Assembly: GCF_026151205.1 (NCBI RefSeq) | Contig: NC_087082.1 | Span: 3,810,001-3,874,000 of the forward strand | DNA from: Bolinopsis microptera | Taxonomy: Eukaryota > Ctenophora > Tentaculata > Lobata > Bolinopsidae | Direction of reading: 5' to 3' | DNA length: 64,000 nt | Shown here: positions 3,102-46,600 of the stretch, one piece after another | How positions within the stretch are numbered: the stretch's first letter is position 1 | Layout: the number at the start of each line of letters is the position of its first letter | Made by a program: the position numbers and the translations under genes | The notes under the pieces: model-generated | Databases searched by the model: none | Seen by the model: the letters and a program-made list of their open reading frames with translations, nothing else | What the model was told of the DNA's origin: nothing

Positions 3102-4600
3102 CTAGTCGTTGGAGTGGCCTGCATCACACACATCGCGTTGGCGGCGTAACATATGTCTCCACTGTACTCGGTTGGTAGCCAAAGCTTCTGTTGTGTCGTT
3201 GTCGATGTTTTCAACACCTGTAAACTTAGCAGCATCTTCGAGTACGCAGGACTTCCAGTTCTTACGGGGTCTGCCCCTTGACCTCTTTCCATAATTTGGC
3301 TTCCAGTTCAACAGAAACCTCGGTAGTCTAGAGTCTGGCATTCTAACTACATGTCCATACCAACGTAGCCTGGCAGCACTGATGAAAGTCTCAACTGACT
3401 TGATGCCAGTCCTCCTAAGAATTTCGTCGTTGGTCACATGAAAGAACCATTTAATCCTAAGGATCCTTCTCAAGGAGGTTTGATGGAAAACCTCGAAGCG
3501 TTTCATCTGCTTTTTGGTGGTGTTCCAGACTTCAGCTCCATACAACAAGATGGTGAGGACAGCAGCCCTAGCCTATAGATCCTGATCTTGGTTGGAGTCT
3601 TTATAGTTCTGCTATTCCAAATGTTCCAGAGCTGATGAAAGGCGCCATTAGCCTTCTGAATACGGACATCCAGGTCTCTGTTGATTGTCCCATCCCCACT
3701 GATAGTTGCACCCAGGTAGACAAAGTTGCTAACCTGCTCGACGGGTTCACCCTCAACCGACAGCTCAATACAATCATCCTTGATGAAAGGTCGCTGGGAG
3801 GCGCACTTGCTTACAGCCATGCATTGGGTCTTCTTTGCATTTATTCTGAACCCAGCGTAGGAGCTGTAATGAACTAATAGATCAGTTGATTCCTGTAGGC
3901 CTTCCCCTGAGTTGTCCATAATAGCCATGTCATCAGCATAATCGGTGTCCAGAATGACCTTTTCCTCGACCGTCTTCATCTCTTTCTGCAGCACTGTGCC
4001 TTGGCTGATGATCTTGTTGGTCAGAAATGCAGAAAAGTTTAGGCAGAAATTAAAGACAGGAGGTGCTTGAATGTCACCCTGACCTGTGCCTGAGTTAACA
4101 TCAAACCAGTCTGTCAGCTCCCCATTAACCCTCACGGCACTCATGGTACCCCCAAAAAAAGACTGAAATATTCTGACATATTTTTCAGGCAGCCCATAGT
4201 GTCTCATACTGCACCAAATAAAGTCCCTTCTGATAGAATCGAACGCTGCCTTGAAATCCACAAAATTAATGTAAAGAGGAATGTTAAACTAAAGACAGTT
4301 ATGAATAATAGTTCGGAGAGAATAAATCTGATCAATACATGAGCGGTTCTGTCTAAATCCGCACTGGTTCTCCCTGAGGAGACACTCCATACCAGCATGT
4401 AACCGCTTAAGAAGAATCATCTGAAAAAGCTTGGATGCTGTAGACCTTAAGGTGATCCCTCTGTTGTTCCCGCAGACTAAAGTGTCTCCTTTCTTCCCAA
4501 TAACAATGATCACACCCTTTAACCAATCTTCAGGAACAGTCTCTTCTTCCCACACTTTCTTGAATAGACACTCTAGTTGATCAACTAGAGCACTCGCACC
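3102..4600 (-). pseudogene. LINE reverse transcriptase remnant, frameshifted
   Basis: Read from right to left, the first piece (4555-4289, open further upstream) carries the early RT motifs, with PEDWLKGVIIVIGKKGD and the later GFRQNRSCIDQI. The second piece (4261-3503, 252 aa) has the catalytic first aspartate in DFKAAFDSI, a GTGQGD block at residues 58-63 and the YADD box at residues 108-111. The third piece (3548-3102, 148 aa) is the post-RT region with RLRWYGHVVRMP. At least two frameshifts separate the pieces, so the copy cannot make an active enzyme. It stands alone with no other retrotransposon gene beside it. Confidence 0.85.
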
Positions 4601-5265: not shown

Positions 5266-7743
5266 ATGGAGAATATCAAGTCAGCGATCCTACTGTGTGT
5301 TATAATACTCAATAAAACTGTCGGCATATCATCAACAAATTCAAACCGTAATACAAGTGAAGACGCAAAAGGGCACTTATCTAGAGAAAAAGTGGGAAGG
5401 GAAATGGACGAGAAGGCGGTAAAATCTGTTTCGCTTTATAAACACCCATTAAGTTTATTCCCTTCCTTTGTTGATGGGTCTAGTTTATACCCTTCACTGT
5501 GTCACAGACTGATTACATCTGGGAGTTACATGCACTATAACGATACTGACAGTCGATTTTATCACAAAGACGACGAATTGGATAAAACCTATATTCAAAA
5601 CATGTCGAAAATTTGCCCCATTGAAATAGATTATTTTAATTTTTACTTGGAGTGGAGTGAGATTCTAGTGAATGACACACTATCAGATTTAACAATGGTG
5701 GGAGGAGAACTTTACCAATGTGAAATATTTTCGAGTGAATTATGTAATTCATACAGTATATGCTCGACTGATGAGTGCAACTGCCGGACCGGAGGAACAT
5801 ACTATCAGGACCAGGTCATGTACTGTCCAAGGAGTGACGGAGGGATAGCTTGTATCAGCTTTGCAAATATTTGTGACGGGATAGTCGACTGTGCTGACCA
5901 AAGTGATGAGTGCCTTTGTCAGGATTCATATGAGTTGTCGTGTCACAAGATACCACAAATAAAACGACTTTGCCTACCCCGAGTCCAGTACTGTTTATAT
6001 CTACCACAAATAAGAAAATTGGACTGCTCAGGCCATCCAGCCGATATTAATTGCACTGACGGAGGTGAAAATGATGATTACAAAGTAACATACAAAAGTG
6101 AGCTGGGCGATTGTCTACAAAACTTGAATATACGTAGTCCCGCCGTACTTTCTGGTGGAAAAGCGAAGTCAGTTTGTCGTAGTCAGTGTACGAATACAAC
6201 AGAGTTGAAAAAATGGGAGAAATTTTGTCAGCATATTGACTTTATATATTTTGGAATGTCACTTAACTTTGTATTCCAATGCCAAATTGAGAATATGGAT
6301 GATCCGTTCGAGGAATCATACGCAATATCTGATATCTGTGATGGTATAATGAATTGCAAAAATAATGCTGATGAGCTTGGTTGTCCGGGACGCTTTTACT
6401 GCTCAACAAATGAAACTGTCTCATGGATTGACGAAAGTAGAGTATGTGATCAAAGGAGAGATTGCACAAATGGGAAAGATGAGTGTGCTGGTTGCATCAT
6501 GGATGGCTTGGCATCTTCAGAATTCCTGGTACAATCTAAACTCATTACAGTTTTGACAAGTTTTCTAGGACTTAGCACCATAATAATAAATATTGTTGTT
6601 GCACTCAAAACCTTACATTCAAGTCAAAATTCGAAAGCGGCTCAAATAGACAAACTTTTGCGGCTTCTAATATGCTTTTACGACCTTCTCATGGGAATAT
6701 ATTTGTTACTTATGATGGTTGCAGGAATTTTGTTGCAGTTCAAGGGTGATTACTGCCAATTTGATGAAGAGTGGCGTGCAAGTTTGCATTGTATGATGCT
6801 TGGAATTATATTTTCACTATCTTCTCATGGATCATTGCTTGTTATTGGCATCATGGGGATAGTGAGATGTATTAAATGTACAATGGGGAGCTCCGTTGAA
6901 CTGTCTAAAAGAAAGGTTATGATAGTTACTGCTGTCGTCTCTCTATTGAACCTGATCCATGCCATTGTACCTACTTTATCTGTTCATCAGATACAAAATG
7001 TCTTCCGGACAAGCATAAACCTGGTTGCAGTTCAAAGAAACCCTTTCATATCGACACAAAAAGGTCATGACATGATAGAACATGTTCGAAAAATTCACGG
7101 CCATTATTTTGAAAACAGTTCATCGACAGACATTTCAAAGATTCTGGCCGATCTCAGACATGCTAACATTACCTCTGATGATACAATTTTCGATGTAATT
7201 GATATAGGATACTACGGCAACACACCTCTTTGTATATATAACATCTTTAAGATGCAAAACAGCTATCAATTGTACAAAGTCTTCTACTGCATAGCTGTAT
7301 CTACTTTACTGATAGTAATTTCAGTAGCATACATCATCATTGTCATCGAAGCTAAACGTTCTCGTCGACGAGTTGGCCCAGACAATAATGACAACACAAC
7401 TCAGTTAGCTCTTAAAGTTTCTCTCATGATAATCTCCCAGTTAGTGAGCTGGGTGTCCTTCATGGCTGCTGTCATTCACTTCTCGTGGATCAGTAACAGT
7501 CCCCCTCCAGCCAAAACATTTGAAATATTCGCTCTGGTTGTGATTCCAATCAACAGTCTTCTCAACCCGATATTTTACAGTGGTTTGTATAAAAGTATGA
7601 CCTCTCTTGTTTGGAGAATATGGAAGAAATTAACTCACTCTGTTGATAACGTTACAACAAACGAAATTGAACTAAGTGTCATGGCAAATATTCCGAAAGT
7701 AAACGAACAATTAGCTCCTCTGCCAGAAGATCAGCCGACTTAA
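5266..7743 (+). CDS. LDLa-domain rhodopsin-like GPCR, copy A
   Basis: Intronless 825-aa receptor. Residues 1-22 form a signal peptide (MENIKSAILLCVIILNKT...). The roughly 400-residue ectodomain is Cys-rich with many N-glycosylation sites and at least three LDL-receptor class A modules: about 186-217 (with the Ca-binding pattern DCADQSDEC), about 338-374 (CDGIMNC...DELGC) and about 378-407 (CDQRRDCTNGKDEC). Seven hydrophobic segments follow from about 424 to 785. TM7 ends in a canonical NPxxY box (NPIFY, about 767-771), which places it in class A. The TM3 DRY motif is degenerate, keeping only the Arg. LDLa plus rhodopsin-type 7-TM recalls relaxin-receptor/GRL101-like receptors, but no leucine-rich repeats are visible. 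The ligand is unknown. Copies B and C are about 95% identical by eye. The first ATG is chosen because it opens the signal peptide and is shared by the copies. Confidence 0.9.
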   Translation: MENIKSAILLCVIILNKTVGISSTNSNRNTSEDAKGHLSREKVGREMDEKAVKSVSLYKHPLSLFPSFVDGSSLYPSLCHRLITSGSYMHYNDTDSRFYHKDDELDKTYIQNMSKICPIEIDYFNFYLEWSEILVNDTLSDLTMVGGELYQCEIFSSELCNSYSICSTDECNCRTGGTYYQDQVMYCPRSDGGIACISFANICDGIVDCADQSDECLCQDSYELSCHKIPQIKRLCLPRVQYCLYLPQIRKLDCSGHPADINCTDGGENDDYKVTYKSELGDCLQNLNIRSPAVLSGGKAKSVCRSQCTNTTELKKWEKFCQHIDFIYFGMSLNFVFQCQIENMDDPFEESYAISDICDGIMNCKNNADELGCPGRFYCSTNETVSWIDESRVCDQRRDCTNGKDECAGCIMDGLASSEFLVQSKLITVLTSFLGLSTIIINIVVALKTLHSSQNSKAAQIDKLLRLLICFYDLLMGIYLLLMMVAGILLQFKGDYCQFDEEWRASLHCMMLGIIFSLSSHGSLLVIGIMGIVRCIKCTMGSSVELSKRKVMIVTAVVSLLNLIHAIVPTLSVHQIQNVFRTSINLVAVQRNPFISTQKGHDMIEHVRKIHGHYFENSSSTDISKILADLRHANITSDDTIFDVIDIGYYGNTPLCIYNIFKMQNSYQLYKVFYCIAVSTLLIVISVAYIIIVIEAKRSRRRVGPDNNDNTTQLALKVSLMIISQLVSWVSFMAAVIHFSWISNSPPPAKTFEIFALVVIPINSLLNPIFYSGLYKSMTSLVWRIWKKLTHSVDNVTTNEIELSVMANIPKVNEQLAPLPEDQPT

Positions 7744-8623
7744 TCTAAGAAAAAATGCTTTCACCACCTCCCCCAGTCCCCTCTCTACTTCAAGTTATAT
7801 TGTATATGCTTAATTGTCTGGTCAACCAGACAATTAGATCAGACAGGAACTGTGTCTCATTTTCAAAAATGAAATTTTGTGATCTTAACGCTATTATAGC
7901 TACAATTTCTTTCTTCTTGTACATCCCATATGATTCTTAATCAAGAAAATAATTGAACGCCTTAATCATGACCGATGTTTTCCCTCCAGTATTACAGATT
8001 ACAGCATTTGTAGTTTTCATGGGGGTAAAAATTAATCACATATCATCCTTGATTAGGAAAGAAGCATACTTTATATTTTTGCTATATTTGGGAGTACTGA
8101 TCAATTTCCGGTTTTTAAAATAAATTTGTTACTCCACTTTATCACATTGCTGAGTGACTAATAATTTTTCAAATTCATTTCGAATCGTGTAAATATGCAA
8201 CAGCTTTTTATAATCTTTTAACAGCTCGGTATTATTGTTTTTTCTCGAGTCAATCGATGATATTTAATTATTTGGGAGTTGGGACGATATGAGATAAAGG
8301 TGACAAGAGAAACTAAAGTCTAAACGCCCCGAATAGAAGACAAAGAGACTAAATATAACCGGAACCGGTACATTGATGACAATTCACCATTAATATTATA
8401 CTGGCCTCCTTTGTTCTATAAACATTCGGATCTTTCTCAAGATCAATCATATAAGTACCAGTGGAAAAGGTTTTGCCTTTTGGGTAGATGTCACACTTTG
8501 TTAGAGAGCTGCCTTTGCAGAAGTGCCAAACATATAGCTTCATCTCTGAGCGTCTTTCTCAGATAGTTAGATGGACGTACCCACCTGAGTCTAGTTATTG
8601 GTATATTCCTGTGGCGAGTATAT
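7744..8623 (+). other. 3' flank of receptor copy A (duplicon sequence)
   Basis: Non-coding sequence shared with the 3' flanks of copies B (19715-20820) and, in part, C (56372-56915). It includes the receptor 3' UTR. Relative to copy B it lacks a block of about 280 bp (present at 20251-20530) that begins AGTCTCCGCTCAGTGT. It ends at the insertion point of the Penelope-like element. Confidence 0.7.
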
Positions 8624-11600
8624 TATGACGCAATGAAACTACCGGACTGCGATGTATGGGGACTTGCCACCCCATGGCAACATTAAAATATATCGACTCT
8701 GTTACATCGTTTCCTGTTAGTATAAAACTCCGTTACAAAATGAACTAGGATCTGGCAATACTACACCTTAGATCAATAAAATATGATATAATAATGTATA
8801 ACTGTTAACTAGACTTAAATAAAAGTCTGAAAGAATATAGAAAATAAACTGGTTTACCGCTTGAAAGTTTAACAATAAACTGTGAAAGTAAACTGTACCG
8901 ATACGATCAAAGAAATAATGGCTAAAGGAGAAAGGCAAAAGGTAACATGCATAAGGAATTACAAGAGGGCTTCACACACACTATAATTACATGAAGTCAT
9001 TAACTGTGAAAATATGCCAGTGTCTGAGGATACACGCTGGCTGACTATTAATAAATAATTTAAGATATCTATGTAAGATTTTCCGTTCAAAATTCTGGGT
9101 AATCAGTTTATCAATTAATAATTTAACATCATGAATAAATTCAGTAACTACTGAGGAAGATTTGCATATCCTATATAATTCACCTACAAATACTCCATAC
9201 GAAGGTTTAACAGGTACGTTGGAGCGAAGGTTAGGAAAAGTAACGACTTTAAAATTAAAGTCACGTCGTTTGTCATATAATTTAGTGTAGAAACGATTGT
9301 TCAAAATATTAATGTCTAAATCAAGAAAAGTCGTAGATAAATTGCTAGAGTTTGTAAGTATAATCTTCAACTCTGCGGGGTAAATATCATTGCAAATAAT
9401 ATCGACAGTCTTATTGTTGATATTGGGGGTGATTAAATCGTCAATGTATCGACTGGCGTGTTTCAAAGTGTGAACCACAGGGTTTTTGTTTTTAACTTGC
9501 AATGTGATGTAATTATGCTCGTACCAGTATAGAAAAAGGTCTGCGACCTGGGAAGCACAATCACATCCCATTGGGATACCAATTACCTGTCTGTAGATCA
9601 CACCTCGAAACTTAACATAAATATTATCCATTAAGAATTTAAACATATCTATCAGGTCACTACATGTAAAAGACCACTTAGTCTTATTAACTCCCGACCA
9701 TCTAGCTTTAAACTGGTCGTTGATATTGATGAAGTCAAGTTTCTTTTCTTCAAAACATAATTTAATTAAAGATGATAACTTCTCAATAAGTTTATCATGG
9801 GGAAGGTTGGTGTACAGTTTCTTAAAATCAAACGAATACACTGACTTAGCTGAGCAGGCATTATTAAGATAATTAAGGTTGGATGTCACTCTGTCTTTAT
9901 TGTCGACAATCCAAAAACCAGAAGCGTTTAAGAACTTAAAATTAAAATTATCTAGGTATTTTAAAGTAGTACCAAGCAGTTTAAATACCCCACTCAGAAT
10001 TTTAGAAAGAACTTTAGTAGAAGATTTAACCCCAGCTGCAATGTACCTGAAATCCAAGGTCGGTTTATGGAATTTCGGTAACATGTGCATAAATGGTACC
10101 GAAAGATCATTCACCGGAATCTTAAACTTCTGGCAAAATTGCACATGCTTTCTTACAATATCCTCTTCAGAATCTGTGGAAACTTGATAAGTACTAGTGG
10201 AGGAAAGTTCATGCAATAAATTATCTAAATAGTACTTCTTGCAGACAAAAGAAACATTATTACTCGCTTTGTCTACGCTAGTCATAATAAAATGTTCTTT
10301 TAGGACATTAAGGTCCTCAAACTCCGAGGAAATAACAGTCTGATTCCGCTTACAAAATATCTTAGAGGAAAAAATCTTGGGTTTAAGAGTATCTAAAACT
10401 ATGGCTCGCCAACCATCAAATAATTTAGTGCTGACACTGTACTTAGTTGCCAGACTTTTAATATATCTATGTAAGTCTGATTTAACACTCCTAAAAATAG
10501 CAAACTTATTTTTGTAAACTGGTTCAATAAAAGTATAACCTTTCTTAAATAATTTTCTAAGTTTATTATTCTTAACAATATCTACGTTCCCAGTGATAAC
10601 ATGCCCGACACTCGGGTTGATGAAATCACTGTAATGACTACAAAAACAATTAACATTAGAGATAGGCTCATTATTTAAAACATGTTCCTTATAATTGGTA
10701 ACATCAGCACGGATTGACTTCTCATATTTAAAACAGGTCGAGAATCTAAACTGAGGATTACTGAATTTCTTACTGAGATCCTTAAACGGAAATACTTTCA
10801 TAGCGTCAGAATCATTTAATATACAGTTTAATCCAAAATATTCCAACTCTTTAGATACAAAGTTAATAGGCACAAATTCTGAATATTTATTAACTGGTTT
10901 CTTATTAACTTTAAAATTATGTTTCTTAAAATCTAAAAATGAGATAGAGCGAGTTTTAAAATGGTTACATAAATCAATCACAATTAAATAACAAACTTTA
11001 ATATCAGTAGTAGCATTGCCAATATTATTAGAAGTAAAGCTACCAAGGTCTATAACTTGATGCTTTTTAAGATTACAGATTAAAGCACGACATGCTCGAA
11101 GATTACCCTCTTTAAAAAGTTTCACAATATAGGAAAGTGTAATGTTAGGGTTAGAGTTGTTAGGGTTGGGAGGGGGTGAGGTTGTGGAATTTTTCGAGCC
11201 TCGAGATGTTCGGGACGAAGGGCGAGGGGGGAAGAGCTTGTAGATACATGCTCCATCCAGAAATTCGTTCTCTGCATCCAGGTAGTAAGGCTTCTCCAGG
11301 CGATCGTTTAGTCCATAGGGATATAGAGTGTTTAAGGACAGCATAAGGCTGTCTTCAACAGACTTAAGTGCAGCAGTCAGAGACTTTTTCTTGGAGTTAG
11401 GATTAGGATCTGATGTAAGAACCGTTTGTAGGGGTGTGATGCGTAGGTCTGAAGGCTGGTGGACTTTAGTGAAATGGTGAAGGACATGATGAGTTGAGCC
11501 TTTGCCATTTTTGAGGCCTGATCTATGATTTGTGAAGCGGGTTCTAAGCGATTGGATAGAGATGCCAACATACTGGAGAGGGCAGTCAGGATGTTCACAA

Positions 11601-11985
11601 GTAATAAGGTATACTATGCCGGAGGTAGTACACGTCATGGGCTCAGAGATTGTGTACTCCTCTCCTGTTATCCGATTGGAGTAGCAGGGGTCAGTTTTGA
11701 GGAAGCCTTTAAGGCACATAAGACATTTTCCACAGTCTGTAATAGGACTAGGCGTAGTACTGGGAGTACTGGGGTAATTACCAGGAGCAGCGGTCGGTGG
11801 TATGGGTAAGGGTATGGGAGTGGGTGGTGCTGGACATGGAGGAAGCTGTAAAGAGGGAAGTGGGGCGGAAGGAGTAGGAGGTATAGGCGATGGAAGGGTG
11901 GGAGCATAAGATAAGACCCTTCCACTTCGAAGTTTCATGGAAACAGGAACAGTCCGAAGTACAATAAATCACCAGATGATCTATG
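8624..11985 (-). mobile_element. Penelope-like retroelement, Naiad-type (permuted domains), 3362 bp
   Basis: Receptor copy B has an uninterrupted sequence at the equivalent place: ...GGCGAGTATATAACC at 20812-20830. In copy A the left half ends at 8623 and the right half resumes at 11986, so the insertion is 8624-11985 and runs on the minus strand. It holds one intact 983-codon frame, 47 bp of 5' leader and about 360 bp of 3' sequence. TATGAC occurs at both edges (8624-8629 and 11981-11986 region), which may be a short target duplication or part of the element ends. I see no long pseudo-LTR, so this may be a single unit of what is usually a longer tandem or inverted insertion. Confidence 0.85.
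8987..11938 (-). CDS. GIY-YIG endonuclease / reverse transcriptase of a Naiad-type Penelope-like element
   Basis: Intact 983-aa protein. After a Pro-rich N-terminus (about 11-65) comes a Cys/His-bearing GIY-YIG nuclease: GIVY at 107-110, YVG at 123-125, arginines at 132-134, and nearby C/C/H/H positions as found in PLE endonucleases. A linker carries the CxC motif (NCFCSHY, about 429-435). The RT follows, with a DKASNN block, LPKFHKPTLDFRYIA, SFDFKKLYTNLPH (catalytic Asp), GIPMGCDCASQVADL and the YIDD catalytic box at about 830-833. In canonical Penelope elements the GIY-YIG domain is C-terminal. An N-terminal GIY-YIG joined to RT by a CxC linker is the published Naiad/Chlamys arrangement, and the CCHH residues favour Naiad. 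No stop or frameshift interrupts it, so it could be active. Confidence 0.9.
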   Translation of the reverse strand: MKLRSGRVLSYAPTLPSPIPPTPSAPLPSLQLPPCPAPPTPIPLPIPPTAAPGNYPSTPSTTPSPITDCGKCLMCLKGFLKTDPCYSNRITGEEYTISEPMTCTTSGIVYLITCEHPDCPLQYVGISIQSLRTRFTNHRSGLKNGKGSTHHVLHHFTKVHQPSDLRITPLQTVLTSDPNPNSKKKSLTAALKSVEDSLMLSLNTLYPYGLNDRLEKPYYLDAENEFLDGACIYKLFPPRPSSRTSRGSKNSTTSPPPNPNNSNPNITLSYIVKLFKEGNLRACRALICNLKKHQVIDLGSFTSNNIGNATTDIKVCYLIVIDLCNHFKTRSISFLDFKKHNFKVNKKPVNKYSEFVPINFVSKELEYFGLNCILNDSDAMKVFPFKDLSKKFSNPQFRFSTCFKYEKSIRADVTNYKEHVLNNEPISNVNCFCSHYSDFINPSVGHVITGNVDIVKNNKLRKLFKKGYTFIEPVYKNKFAIFRSVKSDLHRYIKSLATKYSVSTKLFDGWRAIVLDTLKPKIFSSKIFCKRNQTVISSEFEDLNVLKEHFIMTSVDKASNNVSFVCKKYYLDNLLHELSSTSTYQVSTDSEEDIVRKHVQFCQKFKIPVNDLSVPFMHMLPKFHKPTLDFRYIAAGVKSSTKVLSKILSGVFKLLGTTLKYLDNFNFKFLNASGFWIVDNKDRVTSNLNYLNNACSAKSVYSFDFKKLYTNLPHDKLIEKLSSLIKLCFEEKKLDFININDQFKARWSGVNKTKWSFTCSDLIDMFKFLMDNIYVKFRGVIYRQVIGIPMGCDCASQVADLFLYWYEHNYITLQVKNKNPVVHTLKHASRYIDDLITPNINNKTVDIICNDIYPAELKIILTNSSNLSTTFLDLDINILNNRFYTKLYDKRRDFNFKVVTFPNLRSNVPVKPSYGVFVGELYRICKSSSVVTEFIHDVKLLIDKLITQNFERKILHRYLKLFINSQPACILRHWHIFTVNDFM

Positions 11986-12720
11986 ACCTTTTTCTCGGTA
12001 AATAGACACCCGATCTGGGTAAATAATATAAAAATAAGGTTCTCATCAGGTAGTGTGTGGTGAGGTCAAATCTTTTAAAAAAGGAGCTATTCCTTCGCTT
12101 CGGTCTCGTATTATTATTATTATCTCGTATTATTCTCGTACTATTAGGCAGATTAACCTCGATTAAGTGAGAGTACTTTAAATTTTTTGAAACATTTTCT
12201 ATTTTTATGAAAACTGAGTGACCAGTTTTGAAAATCAAATTATAACTTAAATTTATCACATTACTGTGAAATCACAAACCATGATCGAGCTCTTTCAAAT
12301 TCATTTCGAATTGTGTAATGCAGCAGCTATAAATAATATATCAGCAGCTCGATATTCATATAATGCACGTGCAGCAGCGAGAAAATTATTTACAGATAAG
12401 AATCGATCAATGTCGCGTACTAGCAGATTTTAAAAACAAAAGAAGCTCTGTCGCTGACTATATTATATGAAAATTTTGATGATATCGGACTCGCTTCTTT
12501 GCAAAAAATCTATTGTCCTTCAATTCATTGCATCGATCAACCGCCTTTATCTGATTGTGAATAACTGAATAAGAAGGTCATGTGACCCAGCGGCCAGCAT
12601 CACTATATAGCGAGGTGGCGGCGAGCAGGTTGGGAGCTCAAGTCAGTCATTTTACCAAACTGAGCTGTTTGGTAATACTAATGATATCTTGAATACTTTA
12701 TTTACGCTGTGCGCCTGTGC
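11986..12720 (+). other. Distal 3' duplicon sequence of receptor copy A
   Basis: Non-coding. It matches the flank split between 20829-20863, 30272-30298 and 30685-30758 and its continuation at 42559-43190. In copy A this flank is uninterrupted, so it serves as the empty-site reference for the repeat element and MITE inserted in copy B. It ends where R2 sequence begins at about 12721. Confidence 0.75.
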
Positions 12721-19714: not shown

Positions 19715-20863
19715 TCTAAGAAAAAATGCTTTCACCACCTCCCCCAGTCCCCTCTCTACTTCAAGTTATATGCTTAATTATCTGGTCAACCAGACAATGG
19801 ATCAGACAGGAACTGTGTCTCATTTTCAAAAATGAAATTTTGTGATCTTAACGCTATTATAGCTACAATTTCTTTCTTCTTGTACATCCCATATGATTCT
19901 TAATCAAGCAAATAATTGAACGCCTTAATCATGACCGATGTTTTCCCTCCAGTATTACAGATTACAGCATTTGTAGTTTTCATGGGGTAAAAATTAATCA
20001 CATATCATCCTTGATTAGGAAAGAAGCATACTTTATATTTTTGCTATATTTGGGAGTACTGATCAATTTCCGGTTTTTAAAATAAATTTGTTACGCCACT
20101 TTATCACATTGCTGAATGACTAATAATTTTTCAAATTCATTTCGAATCGTGTAATGCAACAGCTTTTTATAATCTTTTAACAGCTCGGTATTATTGTTTT
20201 TTCTCGAGTCAATTGATGATATTTAATTATTTGGGAGTTGGGACGATATGAGAGTCTCCGCTCAGTGTGGCTTCGTTTAAGCCTATTTTGAAGTCTCTAC
20301 AACATTTAGAAATAAAGAGTCAGTTGCGTCGTTGGGTCAATATGGGCGTGGCCCTCCTGGGTTTTCCCCACGGTAAAAAAATGTCTCCAACCGAAAATCG
20401 TTTAATCATACCTTTGGCAAGGAGGAAGGTCTGTGCAAAGTCTTGTGAGTATCTGAAGATTTGCAGATTCGTTTCCATAAATGTCCATAAATGACTGGAC
20501 TAATAGGTTTGTACTTCTGAGTTGAAATAAGGGTGACAAGAGAAACTAAAGTCTAAACGCCCCGAATAGAAGACAAAGAGACTAAATATAACCGGAACCG
20601 GTACATCGGTGACAATTCACCATTATACTGGCTTCCTTTCTCAAGATCAATCATATAAGTACCAGCGGAAAAGGTTTTGCCTTTTGAGTAGATGTCACAC
20701 TTTGTTAGAGAGCTGCCTTTGCAGAAGTGCCAAACATATGGCTTTATCTCTGAGCGTCTTTCTCAGATAGTTAGATGGACGTACCCACCTGAGTCTAGTT
20801 ATTGATATATTCCTGTGGCGAGTATATAACCTTTTTCTCGGTAAATAGACAACCGATCTGGGT
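19715..20863 (+). other. 3' flank of receptor copy B
   Basis: Non-coding duplicon sequence homologous to 7744-8623 plus about 35 bp equivalent to 11986-12024. It contains a block of about 280 bp (20251-20530) that is absent from copy A. The short frame at 20267-20494 lies in that block and shows no recognisable domain. At 20863 it is interrupted by R1. Confidence 0.7.
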
Positions 20864-22454: not shown

Positions 22455-25400
22455 GAAAATAACGGCAGGGGTAGGGGAAGAAGACGTCGTGGTAGAACTA
22501 CTTTTAGTTCAGCAGCTAGAAGACGTAATCAACGTCGTGACAGACTAGCTAATGAGGCAGTAGAGGAAGCACAGCAGAGAAGAGAGCAAGACCGGTTGCG
22601 TCACACTCCAGAACCACGTATCACATTTATGATGAGTAGTAGTAATCGAGCTAGAGTTTTAGAAGCTTTGACTGATGTGTCTGATGCAGCCAGAACAGCC
22701 ATGGACGAGAACATCCAAGAGTTTATGACACATCGGAGCTTATATATGTCAGAGGAGCAGATTATAGAGATGGATCGCACAGTGGCCAGACTGAGGGAAT
22801 CACAGGCACGAGCAGAGATGACTCCTGAGCAACGGGCTGCCGCTAATGAGGCCGACAGATTACGGATATCACAGGCACGAGCAGAGATGACTGATGAGCA
22901 ACGGGCTGCTGCTTATGAGGCCGACAGATTACGAACATCACAGGCACGAGCAGAGATGACTGATGAGCAACGGGCTGCCGCCAATGAGGCCAACAGATTA
23001 CGAACATCACAGGCACGAGCAGAGATGACTGATGAGCAACTGGCTGCCGCTAATGAGGCCAACAGATTACAAACATCACAGGCACGAGCAGAGATGACTG
23101 ATGAGGAGAGAGAGGCTGAGAGGGCCCGTAATAGGGCACGCCTTGCTGCTGAAAGAGACAGAGCCCGGAGACAACTTGGTGATGCTGTTGCACGCTCTTG
23201 GCCAGACCAAACTCCTCAACCACTTCTATTGGGGCTACGTGATCGTCCCTGTCCGTACAACTGTAACGCCTTAAGATTTGAAAAGGAACTTAGTGGTGTA
23301 CATGCTAGCTTATGTTGTAATAGGGGTAGGGTTAAACTTGAAGATTGCCAGAAACTTTGTCCGTATCCCGATGAAATGAAATATTTGTTAATGGGTGATC
23401 ATCCTAACAGTAGTAACTTTTTTGAATACATTAGACGATATAATTCAGCTCTCGGATTTGCAAGTTTGGGAGCTAACACCACACCTCCTCCTGGATACGG
23501 ACCGTACTGCTTTAGGATTCATGGTGCTGTTTATCATAGATCTGGCTTATTGCACCCTGAGGCCATTAATGAATCGAGAAGGTACGGTCAGATTTACATC
23601 CTTGAAGGCGATGGAGCATTACAAGCAAGACTGAATAATAATGAAAGTACGTTACGTCATGTCATGTTGCTATTACAGAATAACCTTACTTTATGCAACC
23701 CGTATGCTGCTGCGTACAAGAACCTCAATACGCGTGAGCAAGAGGAGATGCAACTCGCGGGAGTTGAGAACAGAGAGCCTAAAAATATTGGTATGAGATT
23801 TAGTGCAGGTCCTGACAGGAGGAGGTACAATGCTCCAACTCACAATGACGTAGCGGCTGTGTTTGTAGGGGAGGACGGTGTTCCTGGCAAGCAAGAATTT
23901 TATGTTTATCCTAAATCGTCGGATACATTACACAAAATTTGTGGTCCACTGTATAGTATGAGAAGTAGAGATTATCTAACTGAACCGGTTGAGAACGTAA
24001 ATTTAAATGAGCTTCATGAAATGACACCTCCCGGTTTTCCATTACATGACTTACAATTAAAAGTAAATTGTAATGTTAGATTGCTTAAGGGATTAGACAG
24101 TTATCCGGACGTTCCTGTAGGCTCACGTTTAAAAGTTACTGAAGTAAACCAAGTTCACGGGTACATAGTTTGTACCTATGCTGGCCGTTCTTTGACTGTA
24201 AGTAAAACTGATTTCGTAACATCATACCAAAATTCCACAGTCATACGACATCAGTTGCCGGTTAAGTTAGAAACATATTTAGAAAATATTTCGGCACTTA
24301 ATGCTAATTTGGACCCATTAGTCTATCCCATATTGTTCCCGAAAGGTGAGAAAGGCTGGCACTCCGAAATGAAACTAAATGACAAGGCTAGGGTATCACA
24401 AAAGATGTTTTATTCGTATAGGATTGCTTACAGAAATGAGCCTTTCTCGCCATTGCATTTTGGTCGCAAACTCTTTCAACAGTACTGTGTCGATTGTTGG
24501 GTTAGAACCGAGGCCAATAGGTTGAAATATATTAATGACAATCAAACGAAGCTACGTGCTGACCTATATTTTGGCCTCATGGATCACCTTGAAAGTGAAA
24601 ACATTGACCCCGGCCAACAACCGCAGCCTGGCCGTCCCAAAATTCTAGCATCGTCCTTTACAGCCGGGCCACGATATATGAAACAAAACTATGAAGATGC
24701 GATGGCTATGGTGACTGAATACGGGAAACCAGACTTCTTTACCACTTACACATGTAACCCTAAGCACCCTGATATTGACAATAACCTTGGCAATGACCCA
24801 AATAGAAACACACATCGTCCAAAATTAACTGCATCGGATAGGCCCGATGTAGTAGCTGCCGTTTTTAAATTACACTTAGAAGCATTAAAAGTTGATCTTA
24901 AGAAAATGTTTGGTAAACAATTAGCTAACATCCATGTAATAGAATATCAGAAACGTGGCTTGCCTCATGCGCATATCCTTATTTGGTTGGTGAACGAGGC
25001 AAAAGTTAGAACAGTAGAGGAGTTAGATAGCTTGATTAGTGCTGAAATTCCTGATCCTAATGTATTTCCACGATTGCACGAAATAGTAACTTCGTGTATG
25101 CTACACGGCCCTTGCGGTTTGGTGAAACCTAACGCATCATGTATGGAAAATGGTAAATGCACAAAGAAGTTTCCTAAAGATTTCCAAGAGGAAACGGTCA
25201 TGGATGTTAATGGATACCCATTGTATAAACGCCCAAACAACGGTAGGATGGTGATGAAAAATGGTGTACCGCTTGACAATAGATACGTAGTACCGTACTG
25301 TCCTTACTTATCACTGAAGTATAATGCCCACATCAACGTAGAAGCCTGTACATCCATAAAATCTATTAAGTACATTTTCAAGTATGTTTACAAAGGTCAT

Positions 25401-31528: not shown

Positions 31529-32665
31529 TCTAAGAAAAAATGCTTTCACCACCTCGCCCAGTCCCCTCTCTACTTCAAGTTATGTGCTTAATTGTCTGGT
31601 CAACCAGACATTGGATCAGTTTCATTTTCAAAAATGAAATTTAGTGATCTAAACGCTATTATAGCTACAATTTCTTTCTTCTGGTACATCCCATATGATT
31701 CTTAATCAAGCAAATAATTGAACGCCTTAATCATGACCGATGTTTTCCCTCCAGTATTACAGATTACAGCATTTGTAGTTTTCATGGGGTAAAAATTAAT
31801 CACATATCATCCTTGATTAGGAAAGAAGCATACTTTATATTTTTGCTATATTTGGGAGTACTGATCAATTTCCGGTTTTTAAAATAAATTTGTTACGCCA
31901 CTTTATCACATTGCTGAATGACTAATAATTTTTCAAATTTATTTCGAATCGTGTAATGCAACAGCTTTTTATAATCTTTTAACAGCTCGGTATTATTGTT
32001 TTTTCTCGAGTCAATTGATGATATTTAATTATTTGGGAGTTGGGACGATATGAGAGTCTCCGCTCAGTGTGGCTTCGTTTAAGCCTATTTTGAAGTCTCT
32101 ACAACATTTAGAAATAAAGAGTCAGTTGCGTCGTTGGGTCAATATGGGCGTGGCCCTCCTGGGTTTTCCCCACGGTAAAAAAATGTCTCCAACCGAAAAT
32201 CGTTTAATCATACCTTTGGCAAGGAGGAAGGTCTGTGCAAAGTCTTGTGAGTATCTGAAGATTTGCAGATTCGTTTCCATAAATGTCCATAAATGACTGG
32301 ACTAATAGGTTTGTACTTCTGAGTTGAAATAAGGGTGACAAGAGAAACTAAAGTCTAAACGCCCCGAATAGAAGACAAAGAGACTAAATATAACCGGAAC
32401 CGGTACATCGGTGACAATTCACCATTATACTGGCTTCCTTTCTCAAGATCAATCATATAAGTACCAGCGGAAAAGGTTTTGCCTTTTGAGTAGATGTCAC
32501 ACTTTGTTAGAGAGCTGCCTTTGCAGAAGTGCCAAACATATGGCTTTATCTCTGAGCGTCTTTCTCAGATAGTTAGATGGACGTACCCACCTGAGTCTAG
32601 TTATTGATATATTCCTGTGGCGAGTATATAACCTTTTTCTCGGTAAATAGACAACCGATCTGGGT
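31529..32665 (+). other. 3' flank of the receptor fragment (unit 2)
   Basis: Duplicate of 19715-20863 with several substitutions and a short deletion near 31617 in the first 400 bp, and near identity afterwards. No gene. Confidence 0.7.
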
Positions 32666-33309: not shown

Positions 33310-36300
33310 TCAACTTAATAACACCAGAATGTGTGTGTGTGTGTCTGTTCGTGTGTAATTTCCGAACGGTTATACAAAAAAATGGTAAGAGTTACGGGAC
33401 TGGTTTTTTCGGTATAGTGTCGACAAAACTCTGACGAAGCCCATAAGCAAAATTTTTAAAAATCGGCCGGTGGTAAGTGGCTTAATTGATGGTTTTGTAC
33501 CATTAATGCAACATTATGGAGTGAGCCACTAAAATGGCTCACTTTTTCTTCCTCTTCGCTCTCTCTCTCTTCCATTACTGTAGCGTTGGTAATTAGGTTA
33601 GCCCCGCAAGTTATTATTAGGGGTGGAGGCACTGCTTGCGGTCTGTTTCAGAGTGTTTGGACTGTAGAAAGAGTTCATACTTTATTATGAGTGTGTGCTG
33701 CGGAGCTTATAAATTTAAACAAAAATGGAAAGCGGTTCAAGACGGGAGTGATGAGGTGAAATAGTCGTGGTACAGGCTGTACGGAGTACGGACCTTATGG
33801 TCATGGAATGTGGTGCCTAATAATGACTTAATTATCCACGAGAAAGAAGTTAAGTTTGAGTTTCGGCCCATTTCCGCAATATTCACTATCCAGTCTAAGT
33901 GAGAATACTATTCACGTGCAATGATTACAAATACTCCAGCCGAACACAGTCGGGGACAGGGGAGAACTGCAGACCTGTATATATTGTGATGTAATTATTA
34001 AGGGGGTGTGTTGAAAAGGTGCTAAATATTGCTTGATACGTTGATTGAGTTTGCCCCCTTTCTTCAAGATTCTTTAGCCACTCGATGTGGTCCTAATATT
34101 CACGTGATCAATTCTATCCAATGATTGCAAATACTCCAGCCGCTAGCAGAAATTTGTTTGTAGTTTCACAATTTTCACAGTTGGATTTGTTTCGCTAGCA
34201 ATTTCACGAATTTATCTTTGCCGCTTGATAGATTTATTGCAGGCTAATGCCTGCAGAAAATAACGGCAGGGGTAGGGGAAGAAGACGTCGTGGTAGAACT
34301 ACTTTTAGTTCAGCAGCTAGAAGACGTAATCAACGTCGTGACAGACTAGCTAATGAGGCAGTAGAGGAAGCACAGCAGAGAAGAGAGCAAGACCGGTTGC
34401 GTCACACTCCAGAACCACGTATCACATTTATGATGAGTAGTAGTAATCGAGCTAGAGTTTTAGAAGCTTTGACTGATGTGTCTGATGCAGCCAGAACAGC
34501 CATGGACGAGAACATCCAAGAGTTTATGACACATCGGAGCTTATATATGTCAGAGGAGCAGATTATAGAGATGGATCGCACAGTGGCCAGACTGAGGGAA
34601 TCACAGGCACGAGCAGAGATGACTCCTGAGCAACGGGCTGCCGCTAATGAGGCCGACAGATTACGGATATCACAGGCACGAGCAGAGATGACTGATGAGC
34701 AACGGGCTGCTGCTTATGAGGCCGACAGATTACGAACATCACAGGCACGAGCAGAGATGACTGATGAGCAACGGGCTGCCGCCAATGAGGCCAACAGATT
34801 ACGAACATCACAGGCACGAGCAGAGATGACTGATGAGCAACTGGCTGCCGCTAATGAGGCCAACAGATTACAAACATCACAGGCACGAGCAGAGATGACT
34901 GATGAGGAGAGAGAGGCTGAGAGGGCCCGTAATAGGGCACGCCTTGCTGCTGAAAGAGACAGAGCCCGGAGACAACTTGGTGATGCTGTTGCACGCTCTT
35001 GGCCAGACCAAACTCCTCAACCACTTCTATTGGGGCTACGTGATCGTCCCTGTCCGTACAACTGTAACGCCTTAAGATTTGAAAAGGAACTTAGTGGTGT
35101 ACATGCTAGCTTATGTTGTAATAGGGGTAGGGTTAAACTTGAAGATTGCCAGAAACTTTGTCCGTATCCCGATGAAATGAAATATTTGTTAATGGGTGAT
35201 CATCCTAACAGTAGTAACTTTTTTGAATACATTAGACGATATAATTCAGCTCTCGGATTTGCAAGTTTGGGAGCTAACACCACACCTCCTCCTGGATACG
35301 GACCGTACTGCTTTAGGATTCATGGTGCTGTTTATCATAGATCTGGCTTATTGCACCCTGAGGCCATTAATGAATCGAGAAGGTACGGTCAGATTTACAT
35401 CCTTGAAGGCGATGGAGCATTACAAGCAAGACTGAATAATAATGAAAGTACGTTACGTCATGTCATGTTGCTATTACAGAATAACCTTACTTTATGCAAC
35501 CCGTATGCTGCTGCGTACAAGAACCTCAATACGCGTGAGCAAGAGGAGATGCAACTCGCGGGAGTTGAGAACAGAGAGCCTAAAAATATTGGTATGAGAT
35601 TTAGTGCAGGTCCTGACAGGAGGAGGTACAATGCTCCAACTCACAATGACGTAGCGGCTGTGTTTGTAGGGGAGGACGGTGTTCCTGGCAAGCAAGAATT
35701 TTATGTTTATCCTAAATCGTCGGATACATTACACAAAATTTGTGGTCCACTGTATAGTATGAGAAGTAGAGATTATCTAACTGAACCGGTTGAGAACGTA
35801 AATTTAAATGAGCTTCATGAAATGACACCTCCCGGTTTTCCATTACATGACTTACAATTAAAAGTAAATTGTAATGTTAGATTGCTTAAGGGATTAGACA
35901 GTTATCCGGACGTTCCTGTAGGCTCACGTTTAAAAGTTACTGAAGTAAACCAAGTTCACGGGTACATAGTTTGTACCTATGCTGGCCGTTCTTTGACTGT
36001 AAGTAAAACTGATTTCGTAACATCATACCAAAATTCCACAGTCATACGACATCAGTTGCCGGTTAAGTTAGAAACATATTTAGAAAATATTTCGGCACTT
36101 AATGCTAATTTGGACCCATTAGTCTATCCCATATTGTTCCCGAAAGGTGAGAAAGGCTGGCACTCCGAAATGAAACTAAATGACAAGGCTAGGGTATCAC
36201 AAAAGATGTTTTATTCGTATAGGATTGCTTACAGAAATGAGCCTTTCTCGCCATTGCATTTTGGTCGCAAACTCTTTCAACAGTACTGTGTCGATTGTTG

Positions 36301-43694: not shown

Positions 43695-46600
43695 TCAACT
43701 TAATAACACCAGAATGTGTGTGTGTGTGTCTGTTCGTGTGTAATTTCCGAACGGTTATACAAAAAAAATGGTAAGAGTTACGGGACTGGTTTTTTCGGTA
43801 TAGTGTCGACAAAACTCTGACGAAGCCCATAAGCAAAATTTTTAAAAATCGGCCGGTGGTAAGTGGCTTAATTGATGGTTTTGTACCATTAATGCAACAT
43901 TATGGAGTGAGCCACTAAAATGGCTCACTTTTTCTTCCTCTTCGCTCTCTCTCTCTTCCATTACTGTAGCGTTGGTAATTAGGTTAGCCCCGCAAGTTAT
44001 TATTAGGGGTGGAGGCACTGCTTGCGGTCTGTTTCAGAGTGTTTGGACTGTAGAAAGAGTTCATACTTTATTATGAGTGTGTGCTGCGGAGCTTATAAAT
44101 TTAAACAAAAATGGAAAGCGGTTCAAGACGGGAGTGATGAGGTGAAATAGTCGTGGTACAGGCTGTACGGAGTACGGACCTTATGGTCATGGAATGTGGT
44201 GCCTAATAATGACTTAATTATCCACGAGAAAGAAGTTAAGTTTGAGTTTCGGCCCATTTCCGCAATATTCACTATCCAGTCTAAGTGAGAATACTATTCA
44301 CGTGCAATGATTACAAATACTCCAGCCGAACACAGTCGGGGACAGGGGAGAACTGCAGACCTGTATATATTGTGATGTAATTATTAAGGGGGTGTGTTGA
44401 AAAGGTGCTAAATATTGCTTGATACGTTGATTGAGTTTGCCCCCTTTCTTCAAGATTCTTTAGCCACTCGATGTGGTCCTAATATTCACGTGATCAATTC
44501 TATCCAATGATTGCAAATACTCCAGCCGCTAGCAGAAATTTGTTTGTAGTTTCACAATTTTCACAGTTGGATTTGTTTCGCTAGCAATTTCACGAATTTA
44601 TCTTTGCCGCTTGATAGATTTATTGCAGGCTAATGCCTGCAGAAAATAACGGCAGGGGTAGGGGAAGAAGACGTCGTGGTAGAACTACTTTTAGTTCAGC
44701 AGCTAGAAGACGTAATCAACGTCGTGACAGACTAGCTAATGAGGCAGTAGAGGAAGCACAGCAGAGAAGAGAGCAAGACCGGTTGCGTCACACTCCAGAA
44801 CCACGTATCACATTTATGATGAGTAGTAGTAATCGAGCTAGAGTTTTAGAAGCTTTGACTGATGTGTCTGATGCAGCCAGAACAGCCATGGACGAGAACA
44901 TCCAAGAGTTTATGACACATCGGAGCTTATATATGTCAGAGGAGCAGATTATAGAGATGGATCGCACAGTGGCCAGACTGAGGGAATCACAGGCACGAGC
45001 AGAGATGACTCCTGAGCAACGGGCTGCCGCTAATGAGGCCGACAGATTACGGATATCACAGGCACGAGCAGAGATGACTGATGAGCAACGGGCTGCTGCT
45101 TATGAGGCCGACAGATTACGAACATCACAGGCACGAGCAGAGATGACTGATGAGCAACGGGCTGCCGCCAATGAGGCCAACAGATTACGAACATCACAGG
45201 CACGAGCAGAGATGACTGATGAGCAACTGGCTGCCGCTAATGAGGCCAACAGATTACAAACATCACAGGCACGAGCAGAGATGACTGATGAGGAGAGAGA
45301 GGCTGAGAGGGCCCGTAATAGGGCACGCCTTGCTGCTGAAAGAGACAGAGCCCGGAGACAACTTGGTGATGCTGTTGCACGCTCTTGGCCAGACCAAACT
45401 CCTCAACCACTTCTATTGGGGCTACGTGATCGTCCCTGTCCGTACAACTGTAACGCCTTAAGATTTGAAAAGGAACTTAGTGGTGTACATGCTAGCTTAT
45501 GTTGTAATAGGGGTAGGGTTAAACTTGAAGATTGCCAGAAACTTTGTCCGTATCCCGATGAAATGAAATATTTGTTAATGGGTGATCATCCTAACAGTAG
45601 TAACTTTTTTGAATACATTAGACGATATAATTCAGCTCTCGGATTTGCAAGTTTGGGAGCTAACACCACACCTCCTCCTGGATACGGACCGTACTGCTTT
45701 AGGATTCATGGTGCTGTTTATCATAGATCTGGCTTATTGCACCCTGAGGCCATTAATGAATCGAGAAGGTACGGTCAGATTTACATCCTTGAAGGCGATG
45801 GAGCATTACAAGCAAGACTGAATAATAATGAAAGTACGTTACGTCATGTCATGTTGCTATTACAGAATAACCTTACTTTATGCAACCCGTATGCTGCTGC
45901 GTACAAGAACCTCAATACGCGTGAGCAAGAGGAGATGCAACTCGCGGGAGTTGAGAACAGAGAGCCTAAAAATATTGGTATGAGATTTAGTGCAGGTCCT
46001 GACAGGAGGAGGTACAATGCTCCAACTCACAATGACGTAGCGGCTGTGTTTGTAGGGGAGGACGGTGTTCCTGGCAAGCAAGAATTTTATGTTTATCCTA
46101 AATCGTCGGATACATTACACAAAATTTGTGGTCCACTGTATAGTATGAGAAGTAGAGATTATCTAACTGAACCGGTTGAGAACGTAAATTTAAATGAGCT
46201 TCATGAAATGACACCTCCCGGTTTTCCATTACATGACTTACAATTAAAAGTAAATTGTAATGTTAGATTGCTTAAGGGATTAGACAGTTATCCGGACGTT
46301 CCTGTAGGCTCACGTTTAAAAGTTACTGAAGTAAACCAAGTTCACGGGTACATAGTTTGTACCTATGCTGGCCGTTCTTTGACTGTAAGTAAAACTGATT
46401 TCGTAACATCATACCAAAATTCCACAGTCATACGACATCAGTTGCCGGTTAAGTTAGAAACATATTTAGAAAATATTTCGGCACTTAATGCTAATTTGGA
46501 CCCATTAGTCTATCCCATATTGTTCCCGAAAGGTGAGAAAGGCTGGCACTCCGAAATGAAACTAAATGACAAGGCTAGGGTATCACAAAAGATGTTTTAT

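Follow-up and report, generated by a model that had tools for sequence, protein, structure and literature searches.

A Penelope-like element with an N-terminal GIY-YIG domain in Bolinopsis microptera that appears to amplify as a single unit and shares its 3' tail with putative leader-tail fusions

The window (the whole 64,000-nucleotide stretch of Bolinopsis microptera DNA that was analysed) carries an element, denoted family A, for which the evidence supports classification as a Penelope-like element of the permuted type, with GIY-YIG at the N-terminus; its frame is intact, and it forms a clean single insertion. This copy is recent and intact and belongs to a telomerase-related retrotransposon that appears to amplify as one unit, lacking the terminal repeats (pseudo-LTRs, pLTRs) used by its relatives in the same genome. 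Quite probably, family A as a whole is explained by a linear unit without pLTRs, the enzyme of which recognises the tail, with trans-spliced leader-tail sequences as by-products.

Structure of the element and its ends

8619-11985, reverse strand: complete single-unit element of family A, about 3.37 kb, without pseudo-LTR, delimited by common ends and empty sites
11939-11985, reverse strand: 5' UTR, 47 nt, starting with (C)ATAGATCAT, the putative transcription start, with the same start at L001, L004, L013 and L069
8987-11938, reverse strand: ORF of 983 aa, stop codon counted in, one uninterrupted frame
11306-11632, reverse strand: N-terminal GIY-YIG domain, residues 103-211, from the aligned proteins of families A-E
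10589-10648, reverse strand: CxC linker motif CFC...HVITG, residues 431-450, from the protein alignment
9149-10306, reverse strand: reverse transcriptase (RT) core, residues ~545-930, with motif A at 703, B' at 787 and YIDD at 831
9659-9751, reverse strand: IFD-like insert, residues ~730-760, separating motif A from motif B' of the RT, from the A-B' spacing
8619-8986, reverse strand: 3' UTR, from the ORF stop to the common 3' end
8290-8618, unstranded: target flank on the left, at the element's 3' side, matching empty sites
11986-12020, unstranded: target flank on the right, at the element's 5' side, matching empty sites
20523-20863, unstranded: receptor copy in which the insertion site is empty, compared with the filled site
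32325-32665, unstranded: second empty receptor copy, compared with the filled site

The earlier note had described a permuted frame of 983 aa, with GIY-YIG at 107-125, a CFC linker at about 430 and YIDD at about 831, in a clean single insertion; the motifs are found at these positions (GIVYLI at 107, YVG at 123, CFC at 431, YIDD at 831), and the insertion is borne out by the empty receptor copies. The dN/dS of the ORF against the diverged copies L004 and L008-L010 is 0.14-0.19.

Two further empty receptor copies are located elsewhere in the genome (L076, L077), and all four empty sites read GAGTATATAACC compared with GAGTATAT/TATGACG at the filled site, so that about 5 nt are common to element and target; the final TATAT of the 3' end is also present in the empty site. 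Among 29 independent copies (the window copy counted), 28 terminate in TAATAT, the exception being L016 with TATTAT, and a further A follows the terminus in 22 of the 29. Because this terminal TAATAT(A) is common to the copies, the 3' end lies at 8620/8619, not at 8624 as originally proposed, that is, 4-5 nt further out, in bases that are also in the target. The 5' limit of 11985, which had likewise been given to the base, holds: the end at 11984/11985 recurs, within 1-2 nt, at the four other loci named above, and on this side no copies extend further. The genome search for consensus ends that the earlier note had suggested yielded 188 matches to the exact 3'-end 23-mer and 5 to the 5'-end pattern, against 0 for either reversed pattern, and these counts are far above chance for both ends. 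At L020, L021, L032 and L079, the tail end is briefly repeated just past the terminus, so a clean 3' junction is not universal. Duplicated loci (L014, L021, L023-L025, L030) were left out of the counts.

Scoring of target-site duplications in 41 flank pairs, among which duplicated fusion loci were kept, gave a high value, 21 against a null 99th percentile of 10, only for one leader-tail fusion locus (L119/L120), which carries a duplication of 24-25 bp; the best family A copy scored 9. A test on 27 loci returned 4.30 versus 4.19, with 148 of 500 shuffles reaching the observed value.

A conserved 95-nt tail

8619-8713, reverse strand: conserved 3' tail, 95 nt, common to truncated copies and leader-tail fusions, the putative RNA recognition sequence for reverse transcription
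8714-8727, reverse strand: splice-acceptor-like site TTTTATACTAACAG directly upstream of the tail, from junction comparison

Across 19 loci selected as diverged, the tail has 95.7% identity, compared with 87.4% for the remaining 3' UTR and 91.8% for the ORF (11 of the loci); between subfamilies, the tail is ~96% conserved despite a dS of ~0.26 (0.257 to the diverged copy L004). The predicted RNA fold of the tail is no better than that of shuffled tails (z -0.50, 59 of 200 shuffles at least as good), and an Rfam search of positions 8300-12300 revealed no ribozyme in the tail. Tail starts were read in 57 copies, duplicated loci included: 39 follow the element's own ..ACAG, 17 follow a leader, and one is cut by a hAT-like insert. 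Twenty additional tail copies came from places outside the loci already examined and were chosen for spread over C1-C4 among the 188 places, not at random. Judging by conservation and by the fusions described below, this short RNA tail is probably what the family A enzyme recognises, and it is apparently sufficient in cis for retrotransposition.

Fusions of the tail to a putative spliced leader

In the fusions, a 37-nt leader is joined to the tail exactly at the splice-acceptor-like site, making a unit of ~130 nt; 14 independent loci were read, and the genome contains 48 exact junction matches, matches with two mismatches having been dropped from the counts, many of them being other leader-bearing sequences. 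This leader, ending at an identical GAG boundary, also stands at the head of sequences that are unrelated and in part LINE-like. At the DNA level, the carriers other than family A tails are L102-L104, L105, L108-L112, L113-L115, L099, L100 and L107, and L102 contains an ORF with a 2OG-FeII_Oxy_2 domain (E 3e-19). The occurrence of the leader on unrelated sequences overturned a different interpretation of the fused 40 nt, as the reverse complement of the end of another repeat.

From these arrangements, we infer that the fusions are trans-spliced RNAs retrotransposed by family A. They could instead represent one SINE family that originated from a single chance fusion rather than from repeated trans-splicing, a scenario that accounts for the identity of the junction in all 48 exact matches and for the nearly constant length (130-137 nt in 13 of the 14 measurable rows, among 17 rows in total) but appears rather unlikely given that the junction coincides exactly both with an acceptor-like AG/G of the element and with the end of the leader found on unrelated sequences, that a second leader variant (L091) is joined at the same tail base, and that several tail variants of family A copies, such as CGCAG and CGTGG, recur in the fused tails. 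No SL RNA gene with a donor GT and an Sm site was identified among the five leader loci that read ...GAG/GTATCG (L108-L112); these have 120 nt downstream in common, including an ATG, and hence cannot be taken as clear SL RNA genes. With Rfam, the only matches were to SAM_alpha and stayed below threshold (E 0.29-0.99).

Copies without pseudo-LTRs

The same 3' end is present in 34 of the 35 family A loci examined, the exception, L013, being a 5' fragment, and the body copies are mostly 5'-truncated, with scattered break points. On whether a pseudo-LTR is required, a question raised by the earlier note, the five loci that reach the 5' end, the only ones of this kind, give a uniform answer in that none has a pLTR. 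Together with the shared 3' end, this suggests that family A spreads in a LINE-like manner, without pLTRs. No second body copy was detected in the 35 loci within the flanks examined. The 1.77-kb L069 had been considered a non-autonomous element, but, judged by eye, the interior resembles a hAT transposon with an 8-bp duplication, GAGGAAAC.

The other families of N-terminal GIY-YIG elements in this genome have pLTRs in 3 of 5 (B), 2 of 3 (C) and 2 of 10 (E) copies examined, or stand in tandem (D); in family E, the pLTR is 3909-4110 = 80-281 of L053. Copies that are 5'-truncated and lack a pLTR are also present in families B, C and E. Family A might then be an ordinary pLTR-type element with a tandem source locus, the copies seen being single units without the former upstream partial copy, in keeping with these relatives and with the description of Penelope-like elements as tandem or partial-tandem (PMC11167929); the assembly may lack a pLTR-bearing source. 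This possibility seems improbable because all five 5'-complete loci share the start base (within 1-2 nt) with no upstream neighbour copy in the sequence around each, and because no terminal repeat of at least 14 nt links the two ends of family A, unlike those of family E (L053).

Class assignment

In nine aligned proteins of families A-E, the GIY-YIG residues Y110, Y123/G125, R134, E195 and N211, the endonuclease (EN) residues C114, C119, H138 and H155, and the linker residues C431 and C433 are invariant; the labels CCHH (EN) and CxC (linker), as well as the IFD-type insert that separates motifs A and B' of the RT, denote what we take to be Naiad-type features. The IFD-like insert is common to families A-E, and the A-B' spacing is 84-86 in these families (10 rows), compared with 60-62 in three families with C-terminal GIY-YIG from the same genome (P1-P3, 4 rows) and 114 in the host TERT. 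Pfam GIY-YIG does not match the family A protein itself, but does match families B (66-120) and E (70-116), in which the domain is aligned with that of family A. In an unrooted RT tree of 14 rows, all from families of this one genome, family A groups with the N-terminal GIY-YIG families and is separated from P1-P3 with support of 100/100, so that the grouping with C-terminal GIY-YIG elements by which the earlier note would have been refuted is not seen; the program flagged meeting long branches (E with P1-P3, B/C with A) and an unusual composition of P2. TERT, when added, was placed inside family C on a branch of 4.8, which was taken as an artefact and disfavours any rooting, and was left out of the final tree owing to its long branch. 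That family A is a canonical Penelope/Poseidon-type element misread as permuted can scarcely be entertained: GIY-YIG and a Penelope-type RT are both present, but in one uninterrupted frame in which GIY-YIG precedes YIDD, the C-terminal GIY-YIG of canonical elements (790-836 by Pfam in L044) is absent, and the Pfam positions in families B and E, the RT split and the A-B' spacing all contradict it.

Naiad elements are reported by Craig and colleagues (2021) to be Penelope-like elements with N-terminal GIY-YIG. They are not known to carry a hammerhead ribozyme. Family A resembles these in domain order, CCHH in EN, the CxC linker, the IFD-like insert and the lack of a hammerhead; this lack, expected in the earlier note, is apparent from zero Rfam matches up to E 1 at positions 8300-12300 and zero at the gathering score in 11 loci. 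The Naiad-type clade name would rest on domain architecture, the RT being compared within one genome. In Naiad elements, pLTRs and tandem or inverted arrangement are described as shared features, which we do not take as clade-defining; family A differs in showing neither, and its 5' end is defined and its 3' tail compact and apparently sufficient. The LINE-like traits of family A are the shared 3' end and scattered 5' truncation, but its endonuclease is GIY-YIG, not APE or RLE as in LINEs.

Structure predictions from the window sequence alone had mean pLDDT of 38.3 for the EN part (residues 60-240) and 34.1 for the RT part (500-983) and were set aside. Neither of two PDB sequence searches produced anything credible: the first gave one match, to a sugar transferase (E 0.0046), and the second gave seven, none with E below 0.86 and with a maturase RT among them. 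A search of viral contigs gave no relative.

Proposed mechanism and comparison with known systems

The RNA start, the trans-splicing and the RNA-protein contact proposed here are all read from DNA. The sense RNA would start at (C)ATAGATC and be translated into the EN-RT protein, which may bind the last 95 nt of the RNA and might perhaps cut an AT-rich, TATA-like target. The cDNA would be primed at the TAATAT(A) end, aided by microhomology, which is consistent with one filled/empty pair, and would usually end early, giving rise to the 5'-truncated copies observed, and the second junction would mostly form without a target-site duplication, as the scores suggest for loci other than the one fusion locus. 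The host's putative spliced leader would sometimes be trans-spliced onto the acceptor directly before the tail, and retrotransposition of the resulting ~130-nt RNA would imply that the tail suffices in cis.

The Poseidon element PAc of Anolis carolinensis, studied in 2024 as a purified full-length system (tandem, C-terminal EN), resembles family A in combining a Penelope-like RT with GIY-YIG, in its AT-rich target and in reverse transcription from a defined RNA site but, unlike family A, has a C-terminal EN, tandem units with pLTRs and a hammerhead, and the RNA that it requires lies in the ORF's first 172 nt (PMC11167929), whereas the tail in the 3' UTR seems to serve instead in family A. The Penelope families of Adineta vaga have a single EN-RT frame, 5'-truncated copies and some insertions without target-site duplication, as family A does, but most of them possess direct or inverted pLTRs (PMC3846280). 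In the LINE/SINE tail partnership, for example, R2 with its internally deleted hybrids (PMC3414825), non-autonomous copies similarly retain the 3' sequence of the autonomous element and 5' truncation occurs, whereas the endonuclease and RT of family A are of the Penelope-like class and its small elements have the leader as their 5' part. Penelope-like machinery has been proposed for metazoan retrozymes, which are likewise small and non-autonomous but, unlike the fusions, carry hammerheads and occur as tandem copies (PMC7229834), and only the fusions have the literal 95-nt tail in common with a resident element. No description of a pLTR-free Naiad or of a spliced-leader/Penelope fusion was found in a partial survey of literature titles and the beginnings of abstracts.

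Family A bears on how Penelope-like elements choose their RNA and on whether pLTRs are needed. It provides an exact unit, with the 5' base, the 3' end and both filled and empty sites, and a comparison, within the same genome, with four relatives that have pLTRs or tandem copies, and the leader-tail fusions seem to offer a natural test of whether a 95-nt RNA signal suffices; with this unit, tail and set of relatives in hand, template recognition by an N-terminal-EN protein is directly testable in vitro. The balance tilts slightly towards the view that a Penelope-like element left the pLTR/tandem cycle with the tail as its sole cis-signal and that spliced-leader trans-splicing keeps making tiny elements consisting of the leader and the 95-nt tail. 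If true, these would constitute a new class of tiny non-autonomous elements mobilised by Penelope-type machinery.

Domain architecture and phylogenetic placement

The family A element of the window (C11:3810001-3874000 of the 265-Mb genome) encodes a single open frame of 983 aa (8987-11938, reverse strand), and the permuted order GIY-YIG, CFC, YIDD that the earlier note had claimed for an intact frame of this length is confirmed by the motif positions.

Motifs of the 983-aa protein of the window
Residue 107: GIVYLI
Residue 123: YVG
Residue 431: CFC
Residue 446: HVITG
Residue 831: YIDD

In the Pfam search, only the reverse transcriptase (RT) is recognized in this protein, below the cut-off (RVT_1, E 5.3e-05), and the assignment of the N-terminal domain as a putative GIY-YIG endonuclease (EN) is based on an alignment to families B and E, in which Pfam places GIY-YIG at residues 66-120 and 70-116, respectively, and on invariant residues. 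In an alignment of nine proteins from families A-E, the residues Y110, Y123, G125, R134, E195 and N211, which we take to be catalytic, are invariant, and so are C114, C119, H138 and H155, presumably the CCHH residues. Compared with seven close family A copies, dN/dS is 0.11-0.48 (dS 0.010-0.034), and compared with the diverged copies L004, L008, L009 and L010, it is 0.14-0.19 (dS 0.26-0.29), so that purifying selection has acted on the protein. The frame of a second copy, L001, is unbroken over the entire protein.

A genome-wide protein search with family A, in which 47 of 3729 first-look candidates were scored, yields close copies with 84-100% identity and remoter matches with 29-34%. By GIY-YIG search and reading of loci, the genome contains five families with N-terminal EN (A-E) and three with C-terminal EN (P1, L044/L046; P2, L073; P3, L074). 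Families B-E include pseudo-LTR or tandem copies (L036/L038/L042, L039/L051, L040, L053), several with unbroken frames, and the canonical P1 is arranged in tandem, with a period of ~3561 bp.

Between RT motifs A and B', families A-E have 84-86 residues, P1-P3 60-62 and the host telomerase (TERT, L075) 114; given this longer spacing compared with P1-P3, A-E have in common an insert at the position of the TERT IFD. In an unrooted RT tree of 14 rows, all from this genome, A-E are split from P1-P3 with 100/100 support, so the proposed grouping with N-terminal-EN rather than C-terminal-EN elements holds among the families of this genome; the tree fixes no branching order for A relative to D, E and B+C, and a warning of the program concerns long branches that come together, E with those of P1-P3 and B/C with that of A. 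When added, TERT falls among the family C rows with a branch length of 4.8, a position that we regard as an artifact. The host TERT itself (L075:219-2321; C1:11629000-11634000) combines the RBD, identified by Pfam, and the RT motifs, identified by eye, within one 701-aa open stretch, and accordingly is intron-poor.

By architecture and RT, the latter compared within this genome only, we would place family A with the N-terminal-EN (Naiad-type) Penelope-like elements (PLEs), an already known kind. Naiad and Chlamys are listed as PLE types in the excerpt of PMC10941475.

Element ends and target site

The 3' end is common to 34 of 35 family A loci examined (L001-L035), the exception, L013, being a 5' fragment, and those 5' ends that fall inside the sequence pieces are spread over 11986 to 8821; in L020, L021, L032 and L035, the match reaches the edge of the sequence piece. 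Because the shared terminus is GCGTC[ACT]TAATAT (TATTAT in L016), with A coming next in 22 of 29 independent copies, the 3' end lies at 8620/8619. Thus, of the limits 8624/11985 given in the earlier note, the 5' one stands to within 1-2 nt, its terminus being found at five loci, and the 3' one is corrected. The 3'-end 23-mer GTAGTTTCATTGCGTCNTAATAT occurs 188 times genome-wide (reversed control, 0), and the 5' terminus ATAGATCATNTGGTGATTTATTGTACT, searched with up to 2 mismatches, occurs five times, always exactly (control, 0), namely in the window, L001, L004, L013 and L069. A ~2.85-kb insert (L004:3290-6139; C1:18226620-18233658) breaks L004, which is otherwise complete at both ends. In L020, L021, L032 and L079, a short additional copy of the tail end lies right past the 3' terminus.

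The empty site is represented four times, by two copies inside the window and two outside it, and each reads GAGTATATAACC; compared with these, the filled site has no duplication and has lost 1-6 bp, depending on the assignment of the shared TATAT. In a duplication test over 27 loci, the mean shared word is 4.30 compared with 4.19 in shuffled flanks (148 of 500 shuffles reach 4.30). Among 41 flank pairs, clear duplication (24-25 bp, score 21; null 99th percentile, 10) is found only at L119/L120, which represent one duplicated locus, and the best family A copy scores 9. TAT is present within the final five bases of the 5' flank in 7 of the 27 loci (background mean 2.4, maximum 6).

The window further contains GPCR-like genes repeated in an array (5266-7743, with repeats at 6967, 18938, 30752 and 55595; LDLa-type by eye), of which only the first receptor copy carries the element, and tandem repeats of 23 and 69 bp (1078-1675; 22718-23174, 34519-34975, 44905-45361), the 69-bp ones recurring in three array units.

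Absence of pseudo-LTRs

No repeats of at least 14 nt join the two ends of the element within 8400-12200, and no upstream second copy is present at any of the five 5'-complete loci within the upstream sequence examined (400 bp for L001, L004 and L013, 379 bp for L069, the rest of the window for the window copy). Among the copies examined from the other families, terminal direct repeats occur in three of five family B copies (L036, L038, L042; 546-567 bp), the other two, L037 and L052, being 5'-truncated; in two of three family C copies (L039, L051; 613-615 bp), with L049 truncated; and in two of ten family E copies (L053, 202 bp; L054, tandem), where seven others are 5'-truncated and L058 is cut by the edge of the sequence piece. 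Family D is in tandem, with periods of ~3353 and 3350 bp (L040, L041). Because 5' truncation is also found in B, C and E, it is common to several families; what distinguishes family A from B-E is 5'-complete copies without a pseudo-LTR (pLTR). According to PMC3846280, Penelope families of Adineta vaga that bear pLTRs have 5'-truncated copies and duplication-free insertions.

A conserved tail fused to a leader

Across 19 loci, chosen as diverged and including two duplicate pairs, identity to the window, indels excluded, is 91.8% in the ORF (covered in 11), 87.4% in the 3' UTR upstream of 8715 and 95.7% in the last 97 nt. In L004, 3 of 97 tail sites differ from the window, despite a dS of 0.257. 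Single-strand folding of the tail is ordinary (z -0.50), and folding energy by itself thus gives no support to recognition by structure. At L070:569-742, 33-bp tandem repeats derived from a piece of the tail adjoin a family A 5' region.

Among 20 tail copies hand-picked across C1-C4 from the 23-mer matches, seven run on into the family A body, six are truncated within the tail and seven switch sequence at 8713-8715. In six of these seven, the foreign part consists of AATACTTTCAACACTACTATATAACAAATAATTTGAG, complete or reduced to its end, and in the seventh, L091, of a leader variant ending in ATTACATTTATTGAG. The leader-tail junction TATAACAAATAATTTGAGGAAACG has 48 exact matches genome-wide, duplicated loci included; when 2 mismatches are allowed, the number rises to 176, many of which represent other sequences (control, 0). 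By comparison of the exact match positions on C1-C6, the tail 23-mer lies at a distance of 88-96 nt from 11 of the 18 junctions; at L116-L123, the tail is present at 8 of 8 exact junctions, diverged in some. Dropping duplicated loci leaves 14 independent fusions, with flanks differing on both sides; in three (L090, L097, L122), the first bases of the leader are absent or altered.

Within family A, the junction follows TTTTATACTAACAG, with 8713 as the first exon base; this resembles an acceptor site with a branch point similar to TACTAAC, the branch-point consensus. Of 57 tail starts matched, duplicates included and tails with indels near the start (such as L095 and L123) missed, 39 follow body ..ACAG, 17 follow a leader, and one, L069, is cut by a hAT-like insert (L069:452-2049; C4:1788500-1792500) bordered by an 8-bp duplication, GAGGAAAC, spanning the leader-tail junction. 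The second leader variant is found at the same junction at L091:421-451 and L069:431-446; its L069 copy adjoins the initial ~50 nt of family A, an arrangement suggestive of a template switch.

Beyond family A, the first leader, again ending at the GAG boundary, heads L099, L100, L107, L102-L104, L105, L108-L112 and L113-L115, and is 37 nt long, ending in TTTGAG, in L102-L105, L108-L112 and L113-L115. The L102 ORF matches 2OG-FeII_Oxy_2 (E 3e-19); in L105, a zinc-knuckle-like ORF precedes FNVRSL... (LINE-like by eye), and Pfam names no credible domain there.

Implications

The DNA displays one 3' end shared by the copies, 5' truncation at scattered points, and 5'-complete copies that have a fixed start and are free of pLTRs, as well as a constrained tail and an exact leader-tail junction. 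In the mechanism that we infer, transcription would start at 11984/11985, target-primed reverse transcription would begin at the terminal TAATAT(A), aided by TATA microhomology, the family A protein would recognize the tail, and trans-splicing would give rise to the leader-tail fusions. For PAc, a canonical element studied in purified form, PMC11167929 reports tandem units and places the required RNA within the ORF's first 172 nt. The signal of family A would lie at the true 3' end, in keeping with there being no unit after it.

No report of a pLTR-free unit or a leader-tail fusion was found among the literature matches listed, and these two features make family A new relative to known Naiad-type elements. 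The leader is probably a spliced leader added in trans to the tail; its sharing by unrelated sequences, some LINE-like by eye, suggests spliced-leader trans-splicing in the host and retrotransposition of trans-spliced RNAs.
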